From contig NZ_SCVC01000006.1 of NCBI RefSeq assembly GCF_004297405.1, positions 620,001 to 684,000 on the forward strand: a DNA stretch of 64,000 bases. Reading direction: 5' to 3'. The stretch is from Reyranella sp. (GTDB lineage: Bacteria > Pseudomonadota > Alphaproteobacteria > Reyranellales > Reyranellaceae). Under the pieces are notes generated by a model. The model was not told where the DNA came from. It made no database searches and worked only from the letters and a program-made list of their open reading frames with translations. The stretch's first letter is position 1. Every line of letters starts with the position of its first letter. Positions 2,159-9,520 of the stretch are shown one piece after another. A program made the translations under genes and the position numbers.

Positions 2159-2566
2159 CTACGAGAGCGCGTCCTTCAGGGCTTCGAAGGGAAGCAACAC
2201 GCATTCCTGTCGCGACTTGTGTGCTGCGACCGGCGCGAAGGCCGTGAACGGTTCGCGCGGGTCTCCGGCCTCGCGACCTATTGCGCGCTCGGCATCATGC
2301 CGGATGTCGGAGATACCTGCCGCATCGCGGCCGACCGCCACCGCCGACAGTGCAGCGGCCGAGGCCTGGCACAGGAGACAGCCGCGCACCTGATGCGCGA
2401 TCTCGGTGATACGTCCCTGCCCGTCCAGCTTGATGTCCATCGTAACGCGATCGCCGCACAATGGATTGTCGCGCCGGGCCGACCTGGTCGGCGCATCGAG
2501 CTTGCCGGCACCGGTCTTGGCCTTGGCGAGCGCGACAATGCGGTCCTGATAGAGCTGGTCGTTCAT
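2159..2566 (-). CDS. SufU-like iron-sulfur scaffold / zinc-dependent sulfurtransferase
   Basis: A 135-residue protein of the IscU/SufU/NifU-N fold. The diagnostic residues are Cys37 and Asp39 in NPLCGD, Cys63 (with an extra Cys66) in GCLLCQASA, and Cys122 in ECVLLPFEAL. These correspond to the three Cys and one Asp that bind zinc in Bacillus SufU, where the protein accepts persulfide sulfur from SufS. The ATG overlaps the stop of the cysteine desulfurase gene (ATGA), so the two are translationally coupled. SufU-type proteins are uncommon in Proteobacteria, which normally pair SufS with SufE. Because all other genes in this operon serve molybdenum hydroxylase maturation, the pair may feed sulfur to that process rather than to general Fe-S assembly; that is inference. 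Confidence 0.85.
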   Translation of the reverse strand: MNDQLYQDRIVALAKAKTGAGKLDAPTRSARRDNPLCGDRVTMDIKLDGQGRITEIAHQVRGCLLCQASAAALSAVAVGRDAAGISDIRHDAERAIGREAGDPREPFTAFAPVAAHKSRQECVLLPFEALKDALS

Positions 2567-3783
2567 CTCAAGGTACGAGCGGCATGCGCCACGCCGGCCA
2601 GCAGCGCGTCGATGTCGGTGTTGTCGTTATAGGGTGCCATCGAAACGCGCGTCGTACCGTCGAGATCGAAGCGGTCCATCAAGGGTTGAGCACAGTGGTG
2701 ACCGGCACGGACCGCAACGCCGAAGGAGTCGAGGGTCTGGGCGACGTCATGCGGATGCACACCGTCCAGGGTGAACGACACGACCGGATAACGGTTCTGC
2801 AGGCTTGCCGGGCCGAACAGCCTGGTGCCATCGACCTTCTGCAGCCCGTCCATCAGCCGCTGCACCAAGCCCATCTCGTGATCGTGCGCCGCTGTCCAGT
2901 CTAGTGCTTGCATCCAGGTACAGGCGGCGCCGAGGCCTATCGCGGGACCGATCGCCGGCGTGCCGGCCTCGAAGCGGCGCGGCGATGGTGCCCATGTCGT
3001 CTCGGCGAAGGTCACTCGTCCGATCATCGAACCACCGCCCATGAACGGCGGCATCGCGTCGAGCAGCTCAGGCTTGCCCCACAGCACGCCGATGCCGTTC
3101 GGCCCGTAGGCCTTGTGGCCCGCGAAGGCATAGAAATCGATGCCAAGCGACGGCAGGTCGAGCGGTCCGTGCGGCGCACGTTGTGCGCCATCGAGCATCA
3201 CCTTGGCGCCGACGGCCTTTGCCGCCGTGACAACAGTGCGGATATCGAGCAGCGCACCGGTCACATTCGAGACGTGGGCTAGCGAAACCAGCTTGGTCTT
3301 CGATGTCAGCAGGCGTGGCAATTCGTTGAGATCGATGCGGCCATCTTCCGTCACCGGGATCATGTCGATCTCGATGCCCGAACGGGCGCGCAGGAGCTGC
3401 CAGGGCACGATATTGGAATGATGCTCCAGCTCGGAGAGCAGAATGCGATCCCCGGGCTTCAGCAGAGAGCCGTAGGAATAGGCCACCAGATTGATCGCCG
3501 CCGTGCAGCCACCGGTGAAGATCACTTCCAGCGGCTGAACACCAAGGAACTTCGCCACCTCGGCGCGTGCGTTCTCGTAGGCCTCGGTCGCCCGTTCGGC
3601 GAGGCGATGCACACCACGCAGCACATTGGCACGGCTGGTCGTTTCGTAGTGCCGCACCGCGTCGATCACAGCCAGCGGCGTCTGCGCCGAGGCACCATTG
3701 TCGAGATAGTGAACCGGCCGGCCGTCGATGATCTCGGAGAGAATAGGAAACTGCCGGCGAACAGCGGCGACATCGAAACTCAT
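2563..3783 (-). CDS. SufS-type cysteine desulfurase (class V aminotransferase)
   Basis: A 406-residue PLP enzyme that takes sulfur from cysteine as an enzyme-bound persulfide, leaving alanine. Visible landmarks are the PLP-binding Lys224 in AGHKAYGP, His121 in ELEHHSNIVPW, and the catalytic Cys364 in RAGHHCAQPL, all where SufS/CsdA-family enzymes have them. Length is normal for the family. Start is an ATG whose first bases overlap the stop of the MoeA/MocA-like fusion (ATGA), and its own end overlaps the SufU-like gene, so it sits inside a tightly coupled operon. No sufB, sufC, sufD or sufE is in the window. Its position downstream of xdhC-type genes recalls Rhodobacter capsulatus, where XdhC cooperates with the desulfurase NifS4 to sulfurate Moco; a similar dedicated role here is likely but unproven. 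Confidence 0.93.
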   Translation of the reverse strand: MSFDVAAVRRQFPILSEIIDGRPVHYLDNGASAQTPLAVIDAVRHYETTSRANVLRGVHRLAERATEAYENARAEVAKFLGVQPLEVIFTGGCTAAINLVAYSYGSLLKPGDRILLSELEHHSNIVPWQLLRARSGIEIDMIPVTEDGRIDLNELPRLLTSKTKLVSLAHVSNVTGALLDIRTVVTAAKAVGAKVMLDGAQRAPHGPLDLPSLGIDFYAFAGHKAYGPNGIGVLWGKPELLDAMPPFMGGGSMIGRVTFAETTWAPSPRRFEAGTPAIGPAIGLGAACTWMQALDWTAAHDHEMGLVQRLMDGLQKVDGTRLFGPASLQNRYPVVSFTLDGVHPHDVAQTLDSFGVAVRAGHHCAQPLMDRFDLDGTTRVSMAPYNDNTDIDALLAGVAHAARTLR

Positions 3784-5432
3784 GCCGTACTCCGTTCCCG
3801 CCAGGCTGCCAGCGCTTCCGGCGTGTCGATGTCGGTGATGGCGGCCTCGCCCGTCATCTCGACCTCACAGACCAGATCGGCGTGCTCGCCGATCAGATGC
3901 TTGGCGCCGCTGTCACCTGAGAGCTTGGTCATCTCCGGGAAGAAGCGGCGTGCCCACAGGACGGGATTGCCGCGTTTGCCGCCGACAGTCGGCACGCAGA
4001 TCGCGCGGCCCTCGACCGGACTGAAAGCGGCAGTCAATCGGTCGAGCAACGGCGCACCGACACCCGGCATGTCGCCGAGCTGCACGATGGCCGCGTCGAT
4101 GTTCGCGCCGAGCGCACCGATCCCGGTTTTCACGGAAGTGCTGAGGCCTTCCGCGAAATCTGGATTGGTGACGAAACGCAGCCGCGATTTCGGCGGCACA
4201 GCCTTCTCGATCGCCGGTCGCACCTGGTCTTCCATGTGACCCAGCACGACCACGACCTCGACGGCTTGCGACGCCAGCGCCGCTTTCACCGCATGCACGA
4301 CCAGAGGCTCGCCCTTGGCGTCGGCCAAGAGCTTGTTGGGTCCACCCATGCGCGTCGAGCGGCCGGCGGCCAGGACGAGTGCGGCGACTCGGGGCGCCTG
4401 TTGCGGCCCCTCACCTTCGGCATCGCTGTCGTCGCGCGGCTGCGGACGGCTCGGGATTTCGGCCAGCAGGCCGCCCGATCCCATGCGCACGATCTCGGCA
4501 CGCCCGACCGGCAGCCGCGCGGCGAGACGCTCTAGCACCATGTCGAAGCCGTTATACTTGGGCGACTTCGCACAGCCCGGCAGGCCCAGCACCGGCTTGC
4601 CGTCGAATTCACCCGTCAGCAGCAGGTTGCCCGGATCGACCGGCATGCCGAAGTGAATGACCTTCCCACCCGCGACTTCGATGCCTGACGGCACGACATC
4701 GTGACGGTCGACGATCGCCGATGCGCCGGCAATCAGGAACAGGTCGCATCCTTCGGCCTTCAGTTCGGCCAAGGCGCCGGCGATCTCCTTCGCGTCGTGC
4801 GCGACTCGGCGCTCGCCGTTCAGGGTGCTACCGAGCGATGTCAGGCGCTTGGTGGTCGTGACGACCGCCTTGTCCAAAACCTTGTCACGCGTGCCCGGCA
4901 GTCTCGTCTGAACCAGACCGGCGCGCATCGACTGGAACGGCGCCACCGAAACCAAAGGTCGATTGGCCGACTTGGCAACACCGATGGCACGGGCAACGGC
5001 GGTGCGCGGCGCGGCATAAGGAATGATCTTGACGGTTGCCACCATCTGGCGCGGCTCGACCCTGGCGAACGGCGGCAGGGTCGCCACCGTCACCGATTCA
5101 TCGAGTTCGTTCAGCTCGTCGATGCGCTCACGATCGACGACGGCGAGCCCGGCTTCGCGAGCGAAATGATTGCAGCGGCCGGTAAAGGGCGCCGTGACCT
5201 CTATGCCCCCGCCCGCCAGAACCTTGGCGACGTTGGCTGCCGCTTCGTCTTCGTGAATATCCTCTTCGTCGAGCTTGGCCGCGACGACTGTCGCGACGCC
5301 AACCGCCTTCAGCTTGGCGATATCGTCGGCCGAGAGCACACGGCCCTTGGAGAAGTTCACGCCGTTCGCACGCCAGCTATGCGCCAGGATGGCGCCCGTC
5401 GCCTCGTCGATGGGGGTTTCGCCGAATCTCAC
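3780..5432 (-). CDS. MoeA-like / MocA-like fusion (molybdenum cofactor cytidylyltransferase)
   Basis: A 550-residue two-domain protein. Residues 1 to about 325 resemble the molybdopterin-binding (MoeA/MogA-type) domain, with segments such as LAELKAEGCDLFLIAGASA and VLGLPGCAKSPKYNGFD. A charged, low-complexity linker follows (about 325-348). From about residue 350 a MobA/MocA nucleotidyltransferase begins with the loop LVLAAGRSTRMGG, with the metal-site motif LGDMPG near residue 454. MocA adds CMP to molybdopterin to make the MCD cofactor used by xanthine-dehydrogenase and CO-dehydrogenase type enzymes, so the protein probably couples cofactor binding to cytidylylation. Translation starts at GTG, overlapping the stop of the upstream xdhC gene (GTGA). 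The fused architecture is known from alphaproteobacterial genomes. Confidence 0.88.
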   Translation of the reverse strand: MRFGETPIDEATGAILAHSWRANGVNFSKGRVLSADDIAKLKAVGVATVVAAKLDEEDIHEDEAAANVAKVLAGGGIEVTAPFTGRCNHFAREAGLAVVDRERIDELNELDESVTVATLPPFARVEPRQMVATVKIIPYAAPRTAVARAIGVAKSANRPLVSVAPFQSMRAGLVQTRLPGTRDKVLDKAVVTTTKRLTSLGSTLNGERRVAHDAKEIAGALAELKAEGCDLFLIAGASAIVDRHDVVPSGIEVAGGKVIHFGMPVDPGNLLLTGEFDGKPVLGLPGCAKSPKYNGFDMVLERLAARLPVGRAEIVRMGSGGLLAEIPSRPQPRDDSDAEGEGPQQAPRVAALVLAAGRSTRMGGPNKLLADAKGEPLVVHAVKAALASQAVEVVVVLGHMEDQVRPAIEKAVPPKSRLRFVTNPDFAEGLSTSVKTGIGALGANIDAAIVQLGDMPGVGAPLLDRLTAAFSPVEGRAICVPTVGGKRGNPVLWARRFFPEMTKLSGDSGAKHLIGEHADLVCEVEMTGEAAITDIDTPEALAAWRERSTA

Positions 5433-6157
5433 GCTGCGGCGACCTTCGGCGCGGACAAGGCTTCGAGGCGGCGTGCACGTACTTCGATGATCTGGCCCAG
5501 GATGGAGATGGCGATCTCGGCCGGCGACTTGGCGCCGATGTTGAGTCCGACCGGACCGTGGACGCGCGCGAACTGTTCCTCGGTGATCCCCGCTTCGGCC
5601 AACCGCTCCTTGCGCTTGGCGTGGGTCTTCCGGCTGCCGAGTGCGCCGATATAGAAGACCTCCGACTTCAGCGCGTATTCGAGCGCCGGATCGTCAAGCT
5701 TGGGATCGTGCGTCAGAGTGACGACGGCCGTCGATCGGTCGAGGCCCATCTTTTCGAAGGCCTCGTCGGCCCATTCCTGCATCACCTTTACGCCAGGGAA
5801 GCGGCTGTCGGTCGCGAAGGCGCGGCGTGGATCGACGACGGTGACATCGAAGTCGAGCAGCGACGCCATGGGCGCCAGCGACTGCGCAATGTGGACGGCG
5901 CCGACAATGATCAATCGCGGCGGCGGCACGTAGACGTTCAGGAAAATACGCTGGCCGCCGACATCGACGGTTTCACTGCGACCGATCTCGAGTGCGCGCC
6001 GCGCCGCCGACAGCAACGTCTCGTCACTCGCCTGCGCGCCCAGTGCCTTGTCCGGATAGATCAAGGTTTCGGCGGCATCGCTGAGCCGTGTGGCCAGCGC
6101 CAGGGCGTGCCGTTTGTTGCGCGCTTCCTGGAGCGCGGCCAGGGTCTCGGCCTTCAT
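5429..6157 (-). CDS. XdhC C-terminal-type protein (Rossmann domain), Moco insertion chaperone
   Basis: A 242-residue protein matching the C-terminal Rossmann half of XdhC. The nucleotide-binding turn reads LIIVGAVHIAQSLAPMA (about residues 82-98), followed by a VVDPR acid-loop and, near the end, VHGPVGLNIGAKSPAEIAISI, the classic XdhC C-terminal signature. XdhC binds molybdenum cofactor, protects it during sulfuration and inserts it into xanthine-dehydrogenase family apoenzymes. In many bacteria this half is fused to the XdhC/CoxI N-terminal domain; here that domain is the separate gene 3 bp upstream. The first glycine-rich position carries Val where many XdhC have Gly. ATG start with AAGGTG upstream. 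Confidence 0.88.
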   Translation of the reverse strand: MKAETLAALQEARNKRHALALATRLSDAAETLIYPDKALGAQASDETLLSAARRALEIGRSETVDVGGQRIFLNVYVPPPRLIIVGAVHIAQSLAPMASLLDFDVTVVDPRRAFATDSRFPGVKVMQEWADEAFEKMGLDRSTAVVTLTHDPKLDDPALEYALKSEVFYIGALGSRKTHAKRKERLAEAGITEEQFARVHGPVGLNIGAKSPAEIAISILGQIIEVRARRLEALSAPKVAAA

Positions 6158-6160
6158 GGT

Positions 6161-6481
6161 TCAGTTCACCTTCTCGACGAAGACCTGCACCTTACCGCCG
6201 CACGCCAGCCCGACATCCCAGGCCTGTTCGTCGGAAACGCCGAAATCCAGCAGCCGTGGCTTGCCGTCGGCGATGGCCGCCAACGCTTCCTTTACGACGG
6301 CGCCTTCGATGCAGCCTCCCGAGACGGAGCCCACCATCGCGCCCGTGTCGTCGACGCCGAGCTGGCTGCCGACCGGTCGAGGCGAAGAGCCCCAGGTGGT
6401 GATCACAGTGGCGATGGCGACACCCTTGCCGCCTGCTTTCCACTTGCCGACCTGATCCAGGACATCGAGTGCGTCGCTCAT
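6161..6481 (-). CDS. XdhC/CoxI N-terminal domain protein (stand-alone)
   Basis: Only 106 residues, equal to the XdhC_CoxI N-terminal domain. It carries the family hallmarks TTWGSSPRPVG (about 28-38) and SVSGGCIEGAVV (52-63, with Cys57 in SGGC). Downstream by 3 bp lies the gene for the matching C-terminal Rossmann half, so the pair together represents one XdhC split over two genes. The start is an ATG with GGAG six bases upstream. It follows the VWA gene with almost no gap. In the CO dehydrogenase (cox) gene clusters, CoxF/CoxI members of this family help assemble the molybdenum-copper-sulfur centre; the exact target enzyme here is not encoded in the window. Confidence 0.87.
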   Translation of the reverse strand: MSDALDVLDQVGKWKAGGKGVAIATVITTWGSSPRPVGSQLGVDDTGAMVGSVSGGCIEGAVVKEALAAIADGKPRLLDFGVSDEQAWDVGLACGGKVQVFVEKVN

Positions 6482-6484
6482 GAT

Positions 6485-7735
6485 CTACTCCTTGCGAAGT
6501 TCGGTCTGCCATCCCGCGAGACGTCTGTCGGCCCCGGTGACCTGCTTACCCAGAGCGGCAATCAACCCCGCCAGGCTTTCCAGATTGTGCACCGGACGGA
6601 ACTCGTCGACATGCGGCAACATGGCCTTGTTGCCTTGAGATTTGGGCTCGTAGGCGCCGTATCGCAAGAGCGGGTTGAGCCAGATCAGACGTGAGCAGGA
6701 TTTATGAAGACGTTCCATTTCCTCACCTAAACCTGCGGCACCTTCGCGATCCAGCCCATCGGTGATCAGCAGGACCACGGCGCCCTGCCCTAGGACGCGG
6801 CGCGACCATTTGTTGTTGAACTCATGCAAGGCCAGACCGATGCGGGTACCGCCCGACCAGTCCTCTACCTGCGCCGATGCCTTCTGCAAGGCGATGTCGA
6901 CATCGCGATTGCGCAGCGCACGCGTCACGTTCGAGAGCCGCGTACCGAAGGTGAAGCAATAGACACGGTCGCGGTCGTTGGTGATGGCGTGCATGAAATG
7001 CAGGAACATGCGCGTGTAGCGGGCCATCGACCCTGAGATGTCGCACAGAATGACCAGCGGTGGCGGGCGGCGGCGCGGTTCGCGCTTACGGAGTTCGGTC
7101 AGCCCCTCCGGCCGCAGTGCGCGCCGCAGCGAGGCCCGGAAATCGACCCGCGGCCCGCGTCGGGCCGGCTGATAGCGCCGGGTCTTGCGCTCCGGAACCG
7201 GCAGACGCATCCGCGCGACGGCGCGCAAGGCCTCGTCGATCTCGGCCTGCGACATCTGCTCGAAGTCGCGATGCTGCAGCACTTCGCGGTCCGAGACCGT
7301 GAAGGTCGCCTCGACTTCGACTTCCGGCGGTTCGTCCGCCTGCTCCGGCGCCTCACCCTTGCCGGCCTGCAACGCGTCCTGCAGACGTCGGCTGAGCTGC
7401 TTACGCTGATCCTGCTCGGCCGGCACACCGACCTGTGGCAGGAGCATCTCCATCATCTTTTCGAGGAGACGCGGATTGCGCCAGTAGACATGGAACGCCT
7501 GGTCGAAGATTTCGCGCTGGTCGCGGCGGTTCACGAAAACCGAATGGAGCGTCCAGTAGAAATCGTCGCGCTTTTGCAGGCCCGCCGCTTCCACCGCCTC
7601 GATGGCGCGCAGTATCTGTCCCGGCCCGACCCGCAGCCCGGCCGTGCGCAAGGTCCGCGCGAAGTGAACGATATTGGTGGCGAGCTTGCCGCCGCGCGGT
7701 TGCGGCGACGCCATCGGTTCGGGCAGCGCGTCCAT
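6485..7735 (-). CDS. CoxE-like von Willebrand factor A domain protein
   Basis: A 416-residue protein whose C-terminal half is a VWA domain. The metal-ion-dependent adhesion site reads CDISGSMARYT (DxSxS at about 232-236), with a second conserved Thr in GGTRIGLAL and Asp in LLITDGLDREG. The N-terminal half is Arg/Glu rich and resembles CoxE, including a highly basic stretch before the VWA domain. It is 10 bp downstream of the MoxR-type ATPase gene. AAA-VWA pairs of this kind act as metal-insertion chaperones; CoxD and CoxE assemble the Mo-Cu centre of CO dehydrogenase. The ATG at 7735 lacks a strong ribosome binding site, and an internal ATG at 7714 is possible. Confidence 0.87.
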   Translation of the reverse strand: MDALPEPMASPQPRGGKLATNIVHFARTLRTAGLRVGPGQILRAIEAVEAAGLQKRDDFYWTLHSVFVNRRDQREIFDQAFHVYWRNPRLLEKMMEMLLPQVGVPAEQDQRKQLSRRLQDALQAGKGEAPEQADEPPEVEVEATFTVSDREVLQHRDFEQMSQAEIDEALRAVARMRLPVPERKTRRYQPARRGPRVDFRASLRRALRPEGLTELRKREPRRRPPPLVILCDISGSMARYTRMFLHFMHAITNDRDRVYCFTFGTRLSNVTRALRNRDVDIALQKASAQVEDWSGGTRIGLALHEFNNKWSRRVLGQGAVVLLITDGLDREGAAGLGEEMERLHKSCSRLIWLNPLLRYGAYEPKSQGNKAMLPHVDEFRPVHNLESLAGLIAALGKQVTGADRRLAGWQTELRKE

Positions 7736-7745
7736 CGCGCGGCAC

Positions 7746-8669
7746 TCAGCCCAGTGGCTGAGCGGCGATGTCCGACTTCACCTGGCGCAGGATTTCGGCC
7801 GCTTCCGAGCCCTGCAGGCGCTGGATGTCGTCCTGGTATTTCAGCAGTACGCCCAGTGTGTCGTTGATCGTCTTGGGATCGAGATCGAGGGCGTTCAGCT
7901 CCGACAGCGCCGTGGCCCAGTCGATCGATTCGGCAACACCCGGCGCCTTGAACAGGTCGAGCTTGCGCAACTCCTGGACGAAGCCCACGACCTGGCGCGA
8001 CAGCCGCTCCGAGCTGCCCGGCGCCTTGACCTGTAAAATCTCGAGCTCACGCTTGAGATCGGGATAGTCGACCCAGTGATAGAAGCAGCGGCGCTTCAGC
8101 GCGTCGTGGATTTCGCGCGTCCGATTCGACGTGATGATCACGATCGGTGTCTCCGCCGCCTTCACCGTGCCGAGTTCGGGAATGGTTACCTGGAAGTCAG
8201 ACAGGACTTCGAGCAGGTACGCCTCGAACGGCTCGTCGGTGCGGTCGAGTTCGTCGATCAGCAGGATCGGTGCGCCTTCGGCATGTGGCTGCAGCGCCTC
8301 AAGGAGCGGACGGCGGATCAGAAATTTCTCGTTGAAGATGTCGGCGGCAATCTCGCCGCGGTCATGAACGCCCTGCGCCTCCGCCAGGCGAATCTCGATC
8401 ATCTGCCGCGCATAGTTCCACTCGTACACGGCCGAGGCCACGTCGAGGCCTTCATAGCACTGTAGTCGGATCAGCGGCCGGTTCAGCGTCTTGGCGAGGA
8501 CCTTGGCAATCTCCGTCTTGCCGACGCCCGCCTCACCTTCGCAGAACAGCGGTCGGCCGAGCTTGAGCGCGAGATAGAGGACAGTGGCGAGGCTGCGATC
8601 GGCGATGTAGTCGCCGCCTTTCAGAAGCTCGACGGTGGCGTCAATCGACGCCGGAATGGGCGAAGGCAT
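7746..8669 (-). CDS. MoxR family AAA ATPase (CoxD-like)
   Basis: About 307 residues with a Walker A motif GEAGVGKTE at roughly 45-53 and a Walker B/acidic segment LLIDELDRTDEPF at about 136-148, followed by the sensor stretch IVIITSNRTREIHDAL. This is the standard MoxR pattern. The frame is open upstream to 8759, but I start at the ATG at 8669 because AGGAG sits four bases before it and the family homology begins there. It is the first gene of the minus-strand maturation operon and probably provides the ATP-driven remodelling step together with the VWA protein. A divergent SDR gene begins 107 bp away, so the promoter must lie in 8670-8776. Confidence 0.9.
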   Translation of the reverse strand: MPSPIPASIDATVELLKGGDYIADRSLATVLYLALKLGRPLFCEGEAGVGKTEIAKVLAKTLNRPLIRLQCYEGLDVASAVYEWNYARQMIEIRLAEAQGVHDRGEIAADIFNEKFLIRRPLLEALQPHAEGAPILLIDELDRTDEPFEAYLLEVLSDFQVTIPELGTVKAAETPIVIITSNRTREIHDALKRRCFYHWVDYPDLKRELEILQVKAPGSSERLSRQVVGFVQELRKLDLFKAPGVAESIDWATALSELNALDLDPKTINDTLGVLLKYQDDIQRLQGSEAAEILRQVKSDIAAQPLG

Positions 8670-8776
8670 GAAACTCCTGAAAACTCGGAGGGATGCTGAA
8701 GCGTCAGTGTAGCGGATGGAGCGGTGCCCCGATATGGTAGGAATAGCAAGATAATTCAAGCATTTGGAGGAAGCGC

Positions 8777-9520
8777 ATGGGGCCTGAGTTATTCAAGGGA
8801 CGCACTGCGATCGTCACCGGCGGTGCGCGGGGAATCGGGCTGGCTTGCGCTGCGAAAATTGCTGCCGGTGGCGGCCGGGTGGCGCTGTGGGATCGCGACC
8901 TCGAACGCGCCAAGCAATCGGTTGCTGCGCTCAAGGGAGCGATTGCCGTCTCGGTCGACGTCACCAGCGAGGAGTCGATCGCCAAAGCGCTCGCCGCCAC
9001 CGAGAAGGACCTTGCCGCCCCCGACATTCTGGTCGCCAGCGCCGGCATCACCGGGCCCAACACGACGGTCGTGAACTATCCTGTCGACGCCTGGAGACAG
9101 GTGATCGACATCAACCTCACCGGCGTCTTCCTCTGCAATCGTGCCGTCGCAAGCGGCATGTCCAAGCGTGGCTGGGGTCGCATCGTCAACATCGCCTCGG
9201 TCGCCGGCAAGGAAGGCAACCCGAACGCCTCCGCCTACTCCGCGTCCAAGGCCGGCGTCATTGGCCTCACCAAGTCTCTTGGCAAGGAGCTTGCGACGAC
9301 GGGCGTGCTGGTGAACTGCGTGGCGCCGGCGGTCGTGAAGACGGAGTTGTTCAGCCAGATGACCGAGCAGCATATCCAGTACATGCTTTCCAAGATTCCT
9401 ATGAACCGCTTCGGCGAAGTCGAGGAAGTGGCCGAGATGGTGGCCTGGCTCGCGTCCCCGCTCTGCACCTTTGCGACGGGTTCGACCTTCGATCTCTCCG
9501 GCGGTCGGGCGACTTACTAA
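8777..9520 (+). CDS. Short-chain dehydrogenase/reductase (FabG-like)
   Basis: A 247-residue classical SDR. It has the cofactor-binding loop TGGARGIG (about 14-21), the structural motif ASAGITG, the catalytic Ser in NIASVAG, and YSASK near 154-158. The C-terminal part with FATGSTFDLSGGRATY is typical of 3-oxoacyl-ACP-reductase-like enzymes. A strong GGAGGA ribosome binding site precedes the ATG. Its stop codon overlaps the ATG of the amidase by one base (TAATG), so the two form an operon. Substrate cannot be assigned; the pairing with an amidase suggests a small catabolic unit acting on an amide and its hydroxy/keto product. Confidence 0.9.
   Translation: MGPELFKGRTAIVTGGARGIGLACAAKIAAGGGRVALWDRDLERAKQSVAALKGAIAVSVDVTSEESIAKALAATEKDLAAPDILVASAGITGPNTTVVNYPVDAWRQVIDINLTGVFLCNRAVASGMSKRGWGRIVNIASVAGKEGNPNASAYSASKAGVIGLTKSLGKELATTGVLVNCVAPAVVKTELFSQMTEQHIQYMLSKIPMNRFGEVEEVAEMVAWLASPLCTFATGSTFDLSGGRATY

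Follow-up and report, generated by a model that had tools for sequence, protein, structure and literature searches.

The window analysed here is a stretch of 64,000 nucleotides from Reyranella sp. (contig NZ_SCVC01000006.1), which carries seven tightly packed open reading frames (ORFs) on the minus strand at positions 2159-8669 (Table 1). Read from the 3' side, their order is SufU-like protein, SufS, fusion of a MoeA-like domain with MocA (MoeMocA), XdhC_C, XdhC N-terminal domain, VWA and MoxR, and the junctions are spaced by -4, -4, -4, +3, +3 and +10 bp, corresponding to three overlaps and three gaps. The original prediction had described seven minus-strand genes with overlaps or gaps of no more than about 10 bp and had read them as a molybdo-hydroxylase maturation operon carrying its own SufS-SufU sulfur-transfer pair. 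This layout was confirmed, the largest gap being 10 bp. The presence together of MoxR, VWA_CoxE, XdhC and cofactor nucleotidyltransferase genes identifies a maturation operon of the XdhC/CoxDEF type.

Table 1. Genes of the operon in the window, with matches to protein family models.
Product	Length (aa)	Position	Strand	Model match
SufU-like zinc sulfurtransferase paralogue	135	2159..2566	-	PF01592 (NifU_N) 39.7 bits, cut-off 22
SufS-type cysteine desulfurase	406	2563..3783	-	TIGR01979 510.7 bits, cut-off 475.1
MoeA-like molybdopterin-binding domain fused to MocA-type cofactor cytidylyltransferase	550	3780..5432	-	PF12804 (NTP_transf_3) 118.4 bits
XdhC Rossmann (C-terminal) domain protein	242	5429..6157	-	PF13478 (XdhC_C) 158.3 bits
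XdhC/CoxI N-terminal domain protein	106	6161..6481	-	PF02625 (XdhC_CoxI) 87.2 bits
CoxE-type VWA protein	416	6485..7735	-	PF05762 (VWA_CoxE) 232.9 bits
MoxR/CoxD-type AAA+ ATPase	307	7746..8669	-	PF07728 (AAA_5) 40.1 bits

The predicted gene families were borne out, with two of them needing a more cautious name. The predicted SufU scores 72.6 bits on the NCBI SufU equivalog model TIGR01994, under the cut-off of 92.5, and is therefore called SufU-like rather than a curated SufU. The MoeA half of the fusion is weak, with 20.5 bits on PF00994 for a cut-off of 26.6; its closest solved relative is the MoeA structure 1uz5 (E 2.4e-5), and several plasmid homologues of the fusion carry the label molybdopterin-binding/glycosyltransferase family 2 protein. 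The MocA half reaches 148.4 bits on TIGR03310 (MocA), under the cut-off of 186.45, and the MoxR-type ATPase 270.2 bits on NF047784 (MadB), under the cut-off of 475. The start of this ATPase was taken as ATG, a longer alternative from a TTG at 8759 being possible.

The catalytic residues listed in the original prediction are all intact, namely Lys224 and Cys364 (codon 2692-2694) in SufS and Cys37 (codon 2456-2458), Asp39, Cys63 and Cys122 in the SufU-like protein, which also has Arg119. The SufU-like protein exhibits an extra cysteine, Cys66 (codon 2369-2371), forming the motif C63-x-L-C66. In the alignment, C37, D39, C63, R119 and C122 are kept in all 60 operon SufU-like rows, window included, and position 66 is Cys in 56 of the 60 rows and Thr in four, versus Ser in 14/14 SUF SufU rows. 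The operon proteins fall into one clade (support 100/100, stem length 2.49 changes per column), apart from the 14 SUF SufU; besides the 60 operon rows, the clade contains five unplaced and four orphan rows, and the few columns of this tree do not settle the deep order inside it. NCBI's SufU model is the best-matching model for these proteins despite the low score, the SUF-operon SufU of a genome of the same order (G025) scoring 144.3 bits on it as a reference. Judged by score and tree, the protein of the window is a member of a SufU-like paralogue clade and not a canonical SufU. Its predicted structural model (pLDDT 96.2) has IscU and SufU structures as its Foldseek matches.

A degenerate orphan type of SufU-like protein was also observed (L146, L152, L153, L154; L283 at 6334-6795; L284 at 5001-5438), with Asp39 changed to Ser and Cys122 lost. 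Asp39 and Cys122 are gone in 4/4 of this type, to which the Brucella structure 5uft appears close by alignment. The orphan-type gene of G411 adjoins SufE.

SufS also has a His345 (codon 2749-2751), which aligns in a pairwise alignment with His354 of Mycobacterium tuberculosis SufS. The latter takes the place of the acceptor cysteine as zinc ligand; it is kept where the SUF system has a SufU and is a Tyr in Escherichia coli SufS, which failed to serve M. tuberculosis SufU (PMC10216065; this and the other PMC articles are cited from excerpts). The residue equivalent to His345 is a His in 43/43 operon SufS that could be read, window included, one more (L067) being cut before it. In a tree obtained by a quick search without bootstrap, the operon SufS form a clade (SH-aLRT 100, stem 0.66) comprising 36 operon rows and three others; the SUF SufS of these genomes fall outside it. 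The operon SufS of families f68 and f113, whose genomes have both types, therefore seems to be an old dedicated copy and not a recent duplicate of the SUF SufS. Two divergent paralogues fall within this clade, L066 (G017) and L279 (G146); they lie away from SufU and exhibit Thr or Asp in place of His345.

The host assembly comprises 6.46 Mb in 50 contigs and is 98.8% complete, and the nearest named isolate for the SufU-like protein is Reyranella massiliensis, with 95% identity. In this genome, SUFBD_core (PF01458), the model for SufB and SufD, has no match, while 14/14 control genomes are positive, so the SufS-SufU pair has no SUF scaffold to feed; SufE has no match in the genome either. An ISC operon is present, comprising IscR-like, NifS-like, IscS, IscU, IscA-like, HscB and HscA. 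Cut-offs are passed by IscS, IscU, HscB and HscA; the IscR-like and IscA-like genes fall short on the IscR and IscA models and pass the broader Rrf2 and TIGR00049 models. A small ferredoxin-like ORF follows the operon by sight. This IscU is the only other NifU_N match in the genome. General iron-sulfur (Fe-S) assembly thus has its own machinery, and the idea that the pair is the Fe-S system of the cell was rejected, SufB and SufD not being found and ISC being present. The original prediction had named as the danger for a dedicated role that the pair be the only one in the genome and that its loss kill general Fe-S assembly without a specific effect on Mo enzymes. The first part holds for what was found, SufS passing its cut-off once in the genome, inside the molybdenum operon, but the ISC operon and the missing SufB/SufD and SufE matches indicate that Fe-S assembly is separate.

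XdhC_C also passes its cut-off once, inside the molybdenum operon; a weak match at C18:82594, considered as a second XdhC, proved to be a D-2-hydroxyacid dehydrogenase. The possible clients are numerous, since MoCoBD_1 has 17 matches in the genome, the closest one lying some 21 kb to the left of the window. A pattern search of the ORFs at these 17 loci for AYRCSFR, which we take to be the motif of the form I CO dehydrogenase large subunit, gave no match, and AYRGAG[RK] is present at six of the loci. Given the single XdhC_C, the 17 MoCoBD_1 matches and the missing form I motif, the operon appears to be the one maturation set of the XdhC type, serving many hydroxylases other than Mo-S-Cu enzymes, and Mo-S-Cu centres, proposed earlier as a target, are unlikely here.

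The arrangement is conserved within the order. The SufU-like protein is encoded in 69/76 order genomes (50/51 of the high-quality ones), those without a match being G004, G009, G017, G021, G045, G059 and G068; in G068 the contig ends within the operon SufS, and G017 has a divergent SufS-like gene. SufS adjoins the SufU-like gene in 68 of the 69 genomes, the remaining one, G074, being at a contig break. All seven genes occur in the same order in 14/20 order-level stretches, which shows that the arrangement is not due to chance. Among the other six, L056, L058 and L067 are cut by contig ends, L064 is a SUF-operon contig, L066 has a lone SufS-like gene, and L069, taken from around the top SufS-model match in a genome that lacks the operon, has none of the seven. 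SufE was found in none of the 10 order genomes tested and SUFBD in one of 76 (G025). On a 13.8-kb contig (C101, L064), this genome has a SUF operon with SufB, SufD, SufS and SufU besides its own molybdenum operon; the contig is either foreign contamination or a recent transfer.

At the level of the class, the SufU-like query has matches at E <=1e-6 in 244/387 genomes, SUF-type SufU included, and SUFBD was found in 271/387. Outside the order, we examined 60 loci from 58 genomes, mostly best-ranked. The SufU-like gene terminates the molybdenum operon in 52 of the 58 genomes, directly after MoeMocA in 25 and after an own SufS in 27, among which G356 and G146 are on broken contigs with a partly inferred placement. 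The six other contexts are a SufS-SufU-like pair as the sole operon genes of the stretch (G296), a position after the SUF SufS (G212), neither of these (G343), and the degenerate orphan type (G327, G098 and G376). A scan of the genome_contigs set confirmed 499 loci encoding a relative. Among the best 80 of these, mostly from the same order, 78 have a MoeMocA or XdhC gene in the retrieved stretch; in the remaining two, the contig stops next to SufS. As one locus (L256) is labelled Ectothiorhodospiraceae, the arrangement may extend beyond the alphaproteobacterial class.

This genome context supports well the dedicated role in molybdo-hydroxylase maturation proposed in the original prediction. 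Beside the maturation genes, the SufU-like gene occurs in the 52 genomes, and an own SufS accompanies it in 27 of them. In the loci surveyed, the SufU-like protein is the constant part of the operon and SufS the optional part.

The presence of an own SufS in the operon correlates with the other SufS of the genome. In 25/25 operons without an own SufS, the genome has another SufS with the His, located beside SufD in 20 and present as a lone copy in the five genomes of family f31. In the 27 genomes with an own SufS, no other His-type SufS was found above 300 bits. Twenty-one of these have neither SUFBD nor SufE matches, and the remaining six, which all have SufE, have a SUF SufS with Tyr (f68, three genomes) or with Gln (f113, three genomes). 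In G146, Asp stands at this position in the second SufS, and contig C131 has a fragment that was taken as the rest of the operon copy. SufE was found in 13 of the 25 genomes without an own SufS and not in the other 12. Fisher's test on 25 versus 27 genomes gives 2e-15, with kinship ignored. In a phylogeny built from the remaining five proteins of the operon, at least nine changes of the own-SufS state are needed, and 7/7 supported independent pairs differ in the predicted direction (p 0.0156). The five genomes of family f31 (L272-L276) have no SUFBD or SufE match, and their lone His-type SufS lies away from the molybdenum operon.

A second test set comprised 20 further SufU loci, for which predictions were written down before analysis. 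An own SufS beside SufU occurs as predicted in 10 of the 12 applicable genomes, the misses being G443 and G383; in G109 and G216, among the ten, the stretch has a SufS-SufU pair and no further gene of the operon. The SufU loci of G275 and G194 are outside a molybdenum operon. The residue of the SUF SufS is as predicted in three of the four that were read, the miss being G339. G117, for which no prediction had been made, fits, having a SufS-SufU pair with His and a SUF SufS with Ser. With the testable second-set cases added, 35 and 26 are as predicted and 1 and 1 against, a tally that counts as predicted G152 and G181, whose other SufS lay outside the search. In G424 (L312), also among the ten, the operon SufS is matched in two separate segments, which looks like a break or frameshift in that assembly.

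The strict rule that an own SufS is present exactly when no other His-type SufS exists held in 52/52 first-pass genomes outside the order and was rejected, as it is broken by G339 and G443 and, inside the order, by G025, where a His-type SUF SufS, encoded on a separate contig, exists alongside the operon SufS. The complementarity is, on these counts, a strong trend and not a law. As SufS is lost where another His-type SufS exists and the SufU-like gene stays, the trend suggests a dedicated carrier in the SufU-like protein, with SufS as a donor that can be replaced.

Based on these results, it is probable that the operon is a stand-alone maturation set for hydroxylases of the xanthine-oxidase family, whose last two genes form its sulfur relay, from SufS via the SufU-like protein to the XdhC-bound cofactor. 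SufS would move sulfur from L-cysteine onto Cys364. The SufU-like protein would dock on SufS, and its zinc would exchange one ligand for His345, which would free Cys37 as the persulfide acceptor. Perhaps via Cys66, the SufU-like protein would then hand the sulfur to the molybdenum cofactor on the split XdhC, converting Mo=O into Mo=S. The MoeA-like/MocA fusion would supply the cytidylated cofactor, and the MoxR/VWA pair would remodel the apo-enzyme for cofactor insertion. In this scheme, each transfer step is inferred, as are XdhC as the acceptor, a function for Cys66 and the identification of the clients with the hydroxylases encoded outside this locus. We lean slightly towards a broader proposal, according to which a SufU-derived family left Fe-S assembly for molybdenum cofactor maturation across the alphaproteobacteria, serves the XdhC-bound cofactor with a CxxC-like site, and taps any His-type SufS, bringing its own where there is none.

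Parts of this scheme have known counterparts. In Rhodobacter capsulatus, an XdhC-family chaperone and a cysteine desulfurase, NifS4, also cooperate, NifS4 sulfurating the XdhC-bound cofactor before its insertion (PMC2997495, PMC10609526); there, however, the desulfurase is outside the xdhABC operon and the excerpts do not mention SufU, whereas the window has SufS within the operon together with a SufU-like protein, a split XdhC and MoxR, VWA and MoeMocA. The coxDEF genes of Oligotropha carboxidovorans share the MoxR-type CoxD, the VWA-type CoxE and the XdhC-type CoxF. CoxD is needed for the sulfuration of CO dehydrogenase, for which the actual sulfur source is given as not known, and SufS is nowhere mentioned in that paper (PMC4240915). 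In contrast to coxDEF, the operon of the window is without structural genes, and the form I motif was not found in the 17 MoCoBD_1 loci of the genome. The SUF SufS-SufU pairs of Bacillus and Mycobacterium share the zinc-swapping His of SufS and the acceptor Cys, the Asp and two more Cys of SufU (PMC10216065), but the window protein belongs to a separate clade with a TIGR01994 score under the cut-off and the extra Cys66, in a genome without a SufB/SufD match. FdhD of formate dehydrogenases is also a sulfurtransferase, linking a cysteine desulfurase to a molybdenum cofactor, with a CXXC motif implicated (PMC10609526, PMC12140954); it differs in protein family and in its bis-MGD cofactor, and the likeness of its motif to C63-x-L-C66 is an analogy that we draw. 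Cofactor sulfuration by XdhC plus a desulfurase is thus known, and what appears new here is the operon SufS with a proposed SufU-like relay. In open-access PMC, no paper joining SufU with XdhC or with a molybdenum hydroxylase was found, nor, among the matches listed, one on this pair, subscription papers and preprints being outside this search.

Several observations weigh against the proposed relay. The SUF SufS also has the His in seven of 13 further genomes (G327, G098, G376, G212, G343, G087 and G096), in which the SufU-like gene, if any, sits outside the molybdenum operon, with Leu, Gln or Asn in the other six (G081, G107, G112, G115, G105 and G100); the His is therefore widespread among the SufS compared and is by itself no sign of a molybdenum-operon system. 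In the second test set, G339 keeps its operon SufS and yet also has a His-type SUF SufS, and G383 is without the predicted operon SufS. G443 has no operon SufS either, and its SUF SufS, the only one covered by the search in this genome, does not carry the His. In the enlarged set, four to five supported pairs are opposite, one to two show no difference and none goes the same way (p 0.06-0.125). Some members of the SufU-like clade are also encoded without a visible operon (L141, L149, L150 and, by motif, L305, L314 and L316). In addition, Azospirillum sp. B510 and Paroceanicella profunda have the MoxR-VWA-XdhC-MoeMocA core but no SufU, a Shinella plasmid has XdhC-MoeMocA, likewise without SufU, and on a Microvirga ossetica plasmid the one SufU-like gene next to the XdhC genes is of the orphan type. 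According to these four plasmid-borne relatives, taken from PLSDB gene tables that are incomplete, SufU is not required for the principle of this operon type, nor is this SufU type universal to it. A tblastn search with the window SufU returned one plasmid record, with a weak match, and missed the Microvirga orphan type; together with the plasmid relatives, this indicates that this SufU is a lineage-bound solution.

The existence of such operons without this SufU type also favours the strongest alternative, in which SufS delivers sulfur straight to XdhC in the manner of NifS4 and the SufU-like protein merely activates or docks SufS, as does the interaction of NifS4 with XdhC directly and its sulfuration without mention of SufU in the excerpt of PMC2997495. 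In contrast, the SufU-like gene is constant and SufS optional (25 versus 27 genomes), the acceptor Cys37 is kept in 60/60 operon rows, and a His-type SufS occurs in nearly all first-pass operon genomes and in all readable second-set operons except G443. Direct delivery is therefore unlikely, though to be taken seriously. Molybdenum hydroxylases themselves contain [2Fe-2S] clusters, and the pair could be a small Fe-S builder, with the SufU-like protein as scaffold for the two clusters of the hydroxylase small subunits and SufS as the sulfur source. The match of the SufU-like structural model to both SufU and IscU structures is consistent with this role, and the title of structure 9dcl, M. tuberculosis SufU with a [2Fe-2S] cluster, also speaks for it and against the relay. 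However, the genome encodes an ISC operon, with neither SufB/SufD nor SufE matched in it, the gene lies beside XdhC and MoeMocA, which handle the molybdenum cofactor, the zinc-swap His of all 43 operon SufS fits a zinc sulfurtransferase, and a section of PMC10216065 is headed 'Mtb Zn-SufU Is Not an Intermediate in Fe-S Formation', which makes an Fe-S builder improbable. Finally, the SufU-like genes without a visible operon (L141, L305, L314, L316) and the existence of selenium-dependent molybdenum hydroxylases (PMC2276186) could point to selenium or sulfur supply elsewhere (tRNA, MoaD or another thio-cofactor), with the place in the operon a historical chance, but the linkage in 52/58 outside-order genomes and in 78 of the best 80 genome_contigs loci, and the overlapping start and stop codons in the window, make this very improbable.

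The relay from SufS through the SufU-like protein to XdhC, if correct, matters in several respects. With candidates for donor, carrier and acceptor in one operon and neither SufB/SufD nor SufE found, removal of the genes should separate a Mo=S phenotype from Fe-S effects. In the literature examined, the best-worked sulfur supply to bacterial molybdenum hydroxylases is that of Rhodobacter XdhC and NifS4, the CoxD-dependent source being described as not known (PMC4240915). For annotation, genomes without a SUF scaffold carry SufU-like proteins for which the NCBI SufU model is the best match. Lastly, one SufS residue, His versus Tyr or Gln, would provide a sequence rule, with known exceptions, for which donor can feed which carrier.

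A few contexts of the SufU-like genes are of note in their own right. In G212 (L150, 11042-11458), a SufU-like gene of the molybdenum clade with the CxLC motif lies behind SufS at the end of the SUF operon. In family f36 (L141, L305, L314), the stretch has the SufS-SufU-like pair but no further gene of the molybdenum operon; the pair of G296 is near a gene that, read by eye, is sulfite-reductase-like. The orphan SufU-like gene of the Microvirga ossetica plasmid is also near coxG and CO-dehydrogenase-like genes. A plasmid origin was considered and rejected, as the only plasmid match for SufU is weak and outside any molybdenum operon.

Two genes flank the operon in the window. A DUF4139/MuiA-like gene lies at 65-2134 on the same minus strand, 24 bp beyond the SufU-like gene, and is kept there in most order loci. 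It was rejected as an eighth operon member, since it was not found in the 2-10 kb after SufU in L052, L054, L057, L242 and L243, nor next to the operon in any outside-order locus of the genome_contigs set. On the other side, a short-chain dehydrogenase gene at 8777-9520 on the plus strand is divergent and upstream of MoxR, and its position is kept in the order loci that reach that far.

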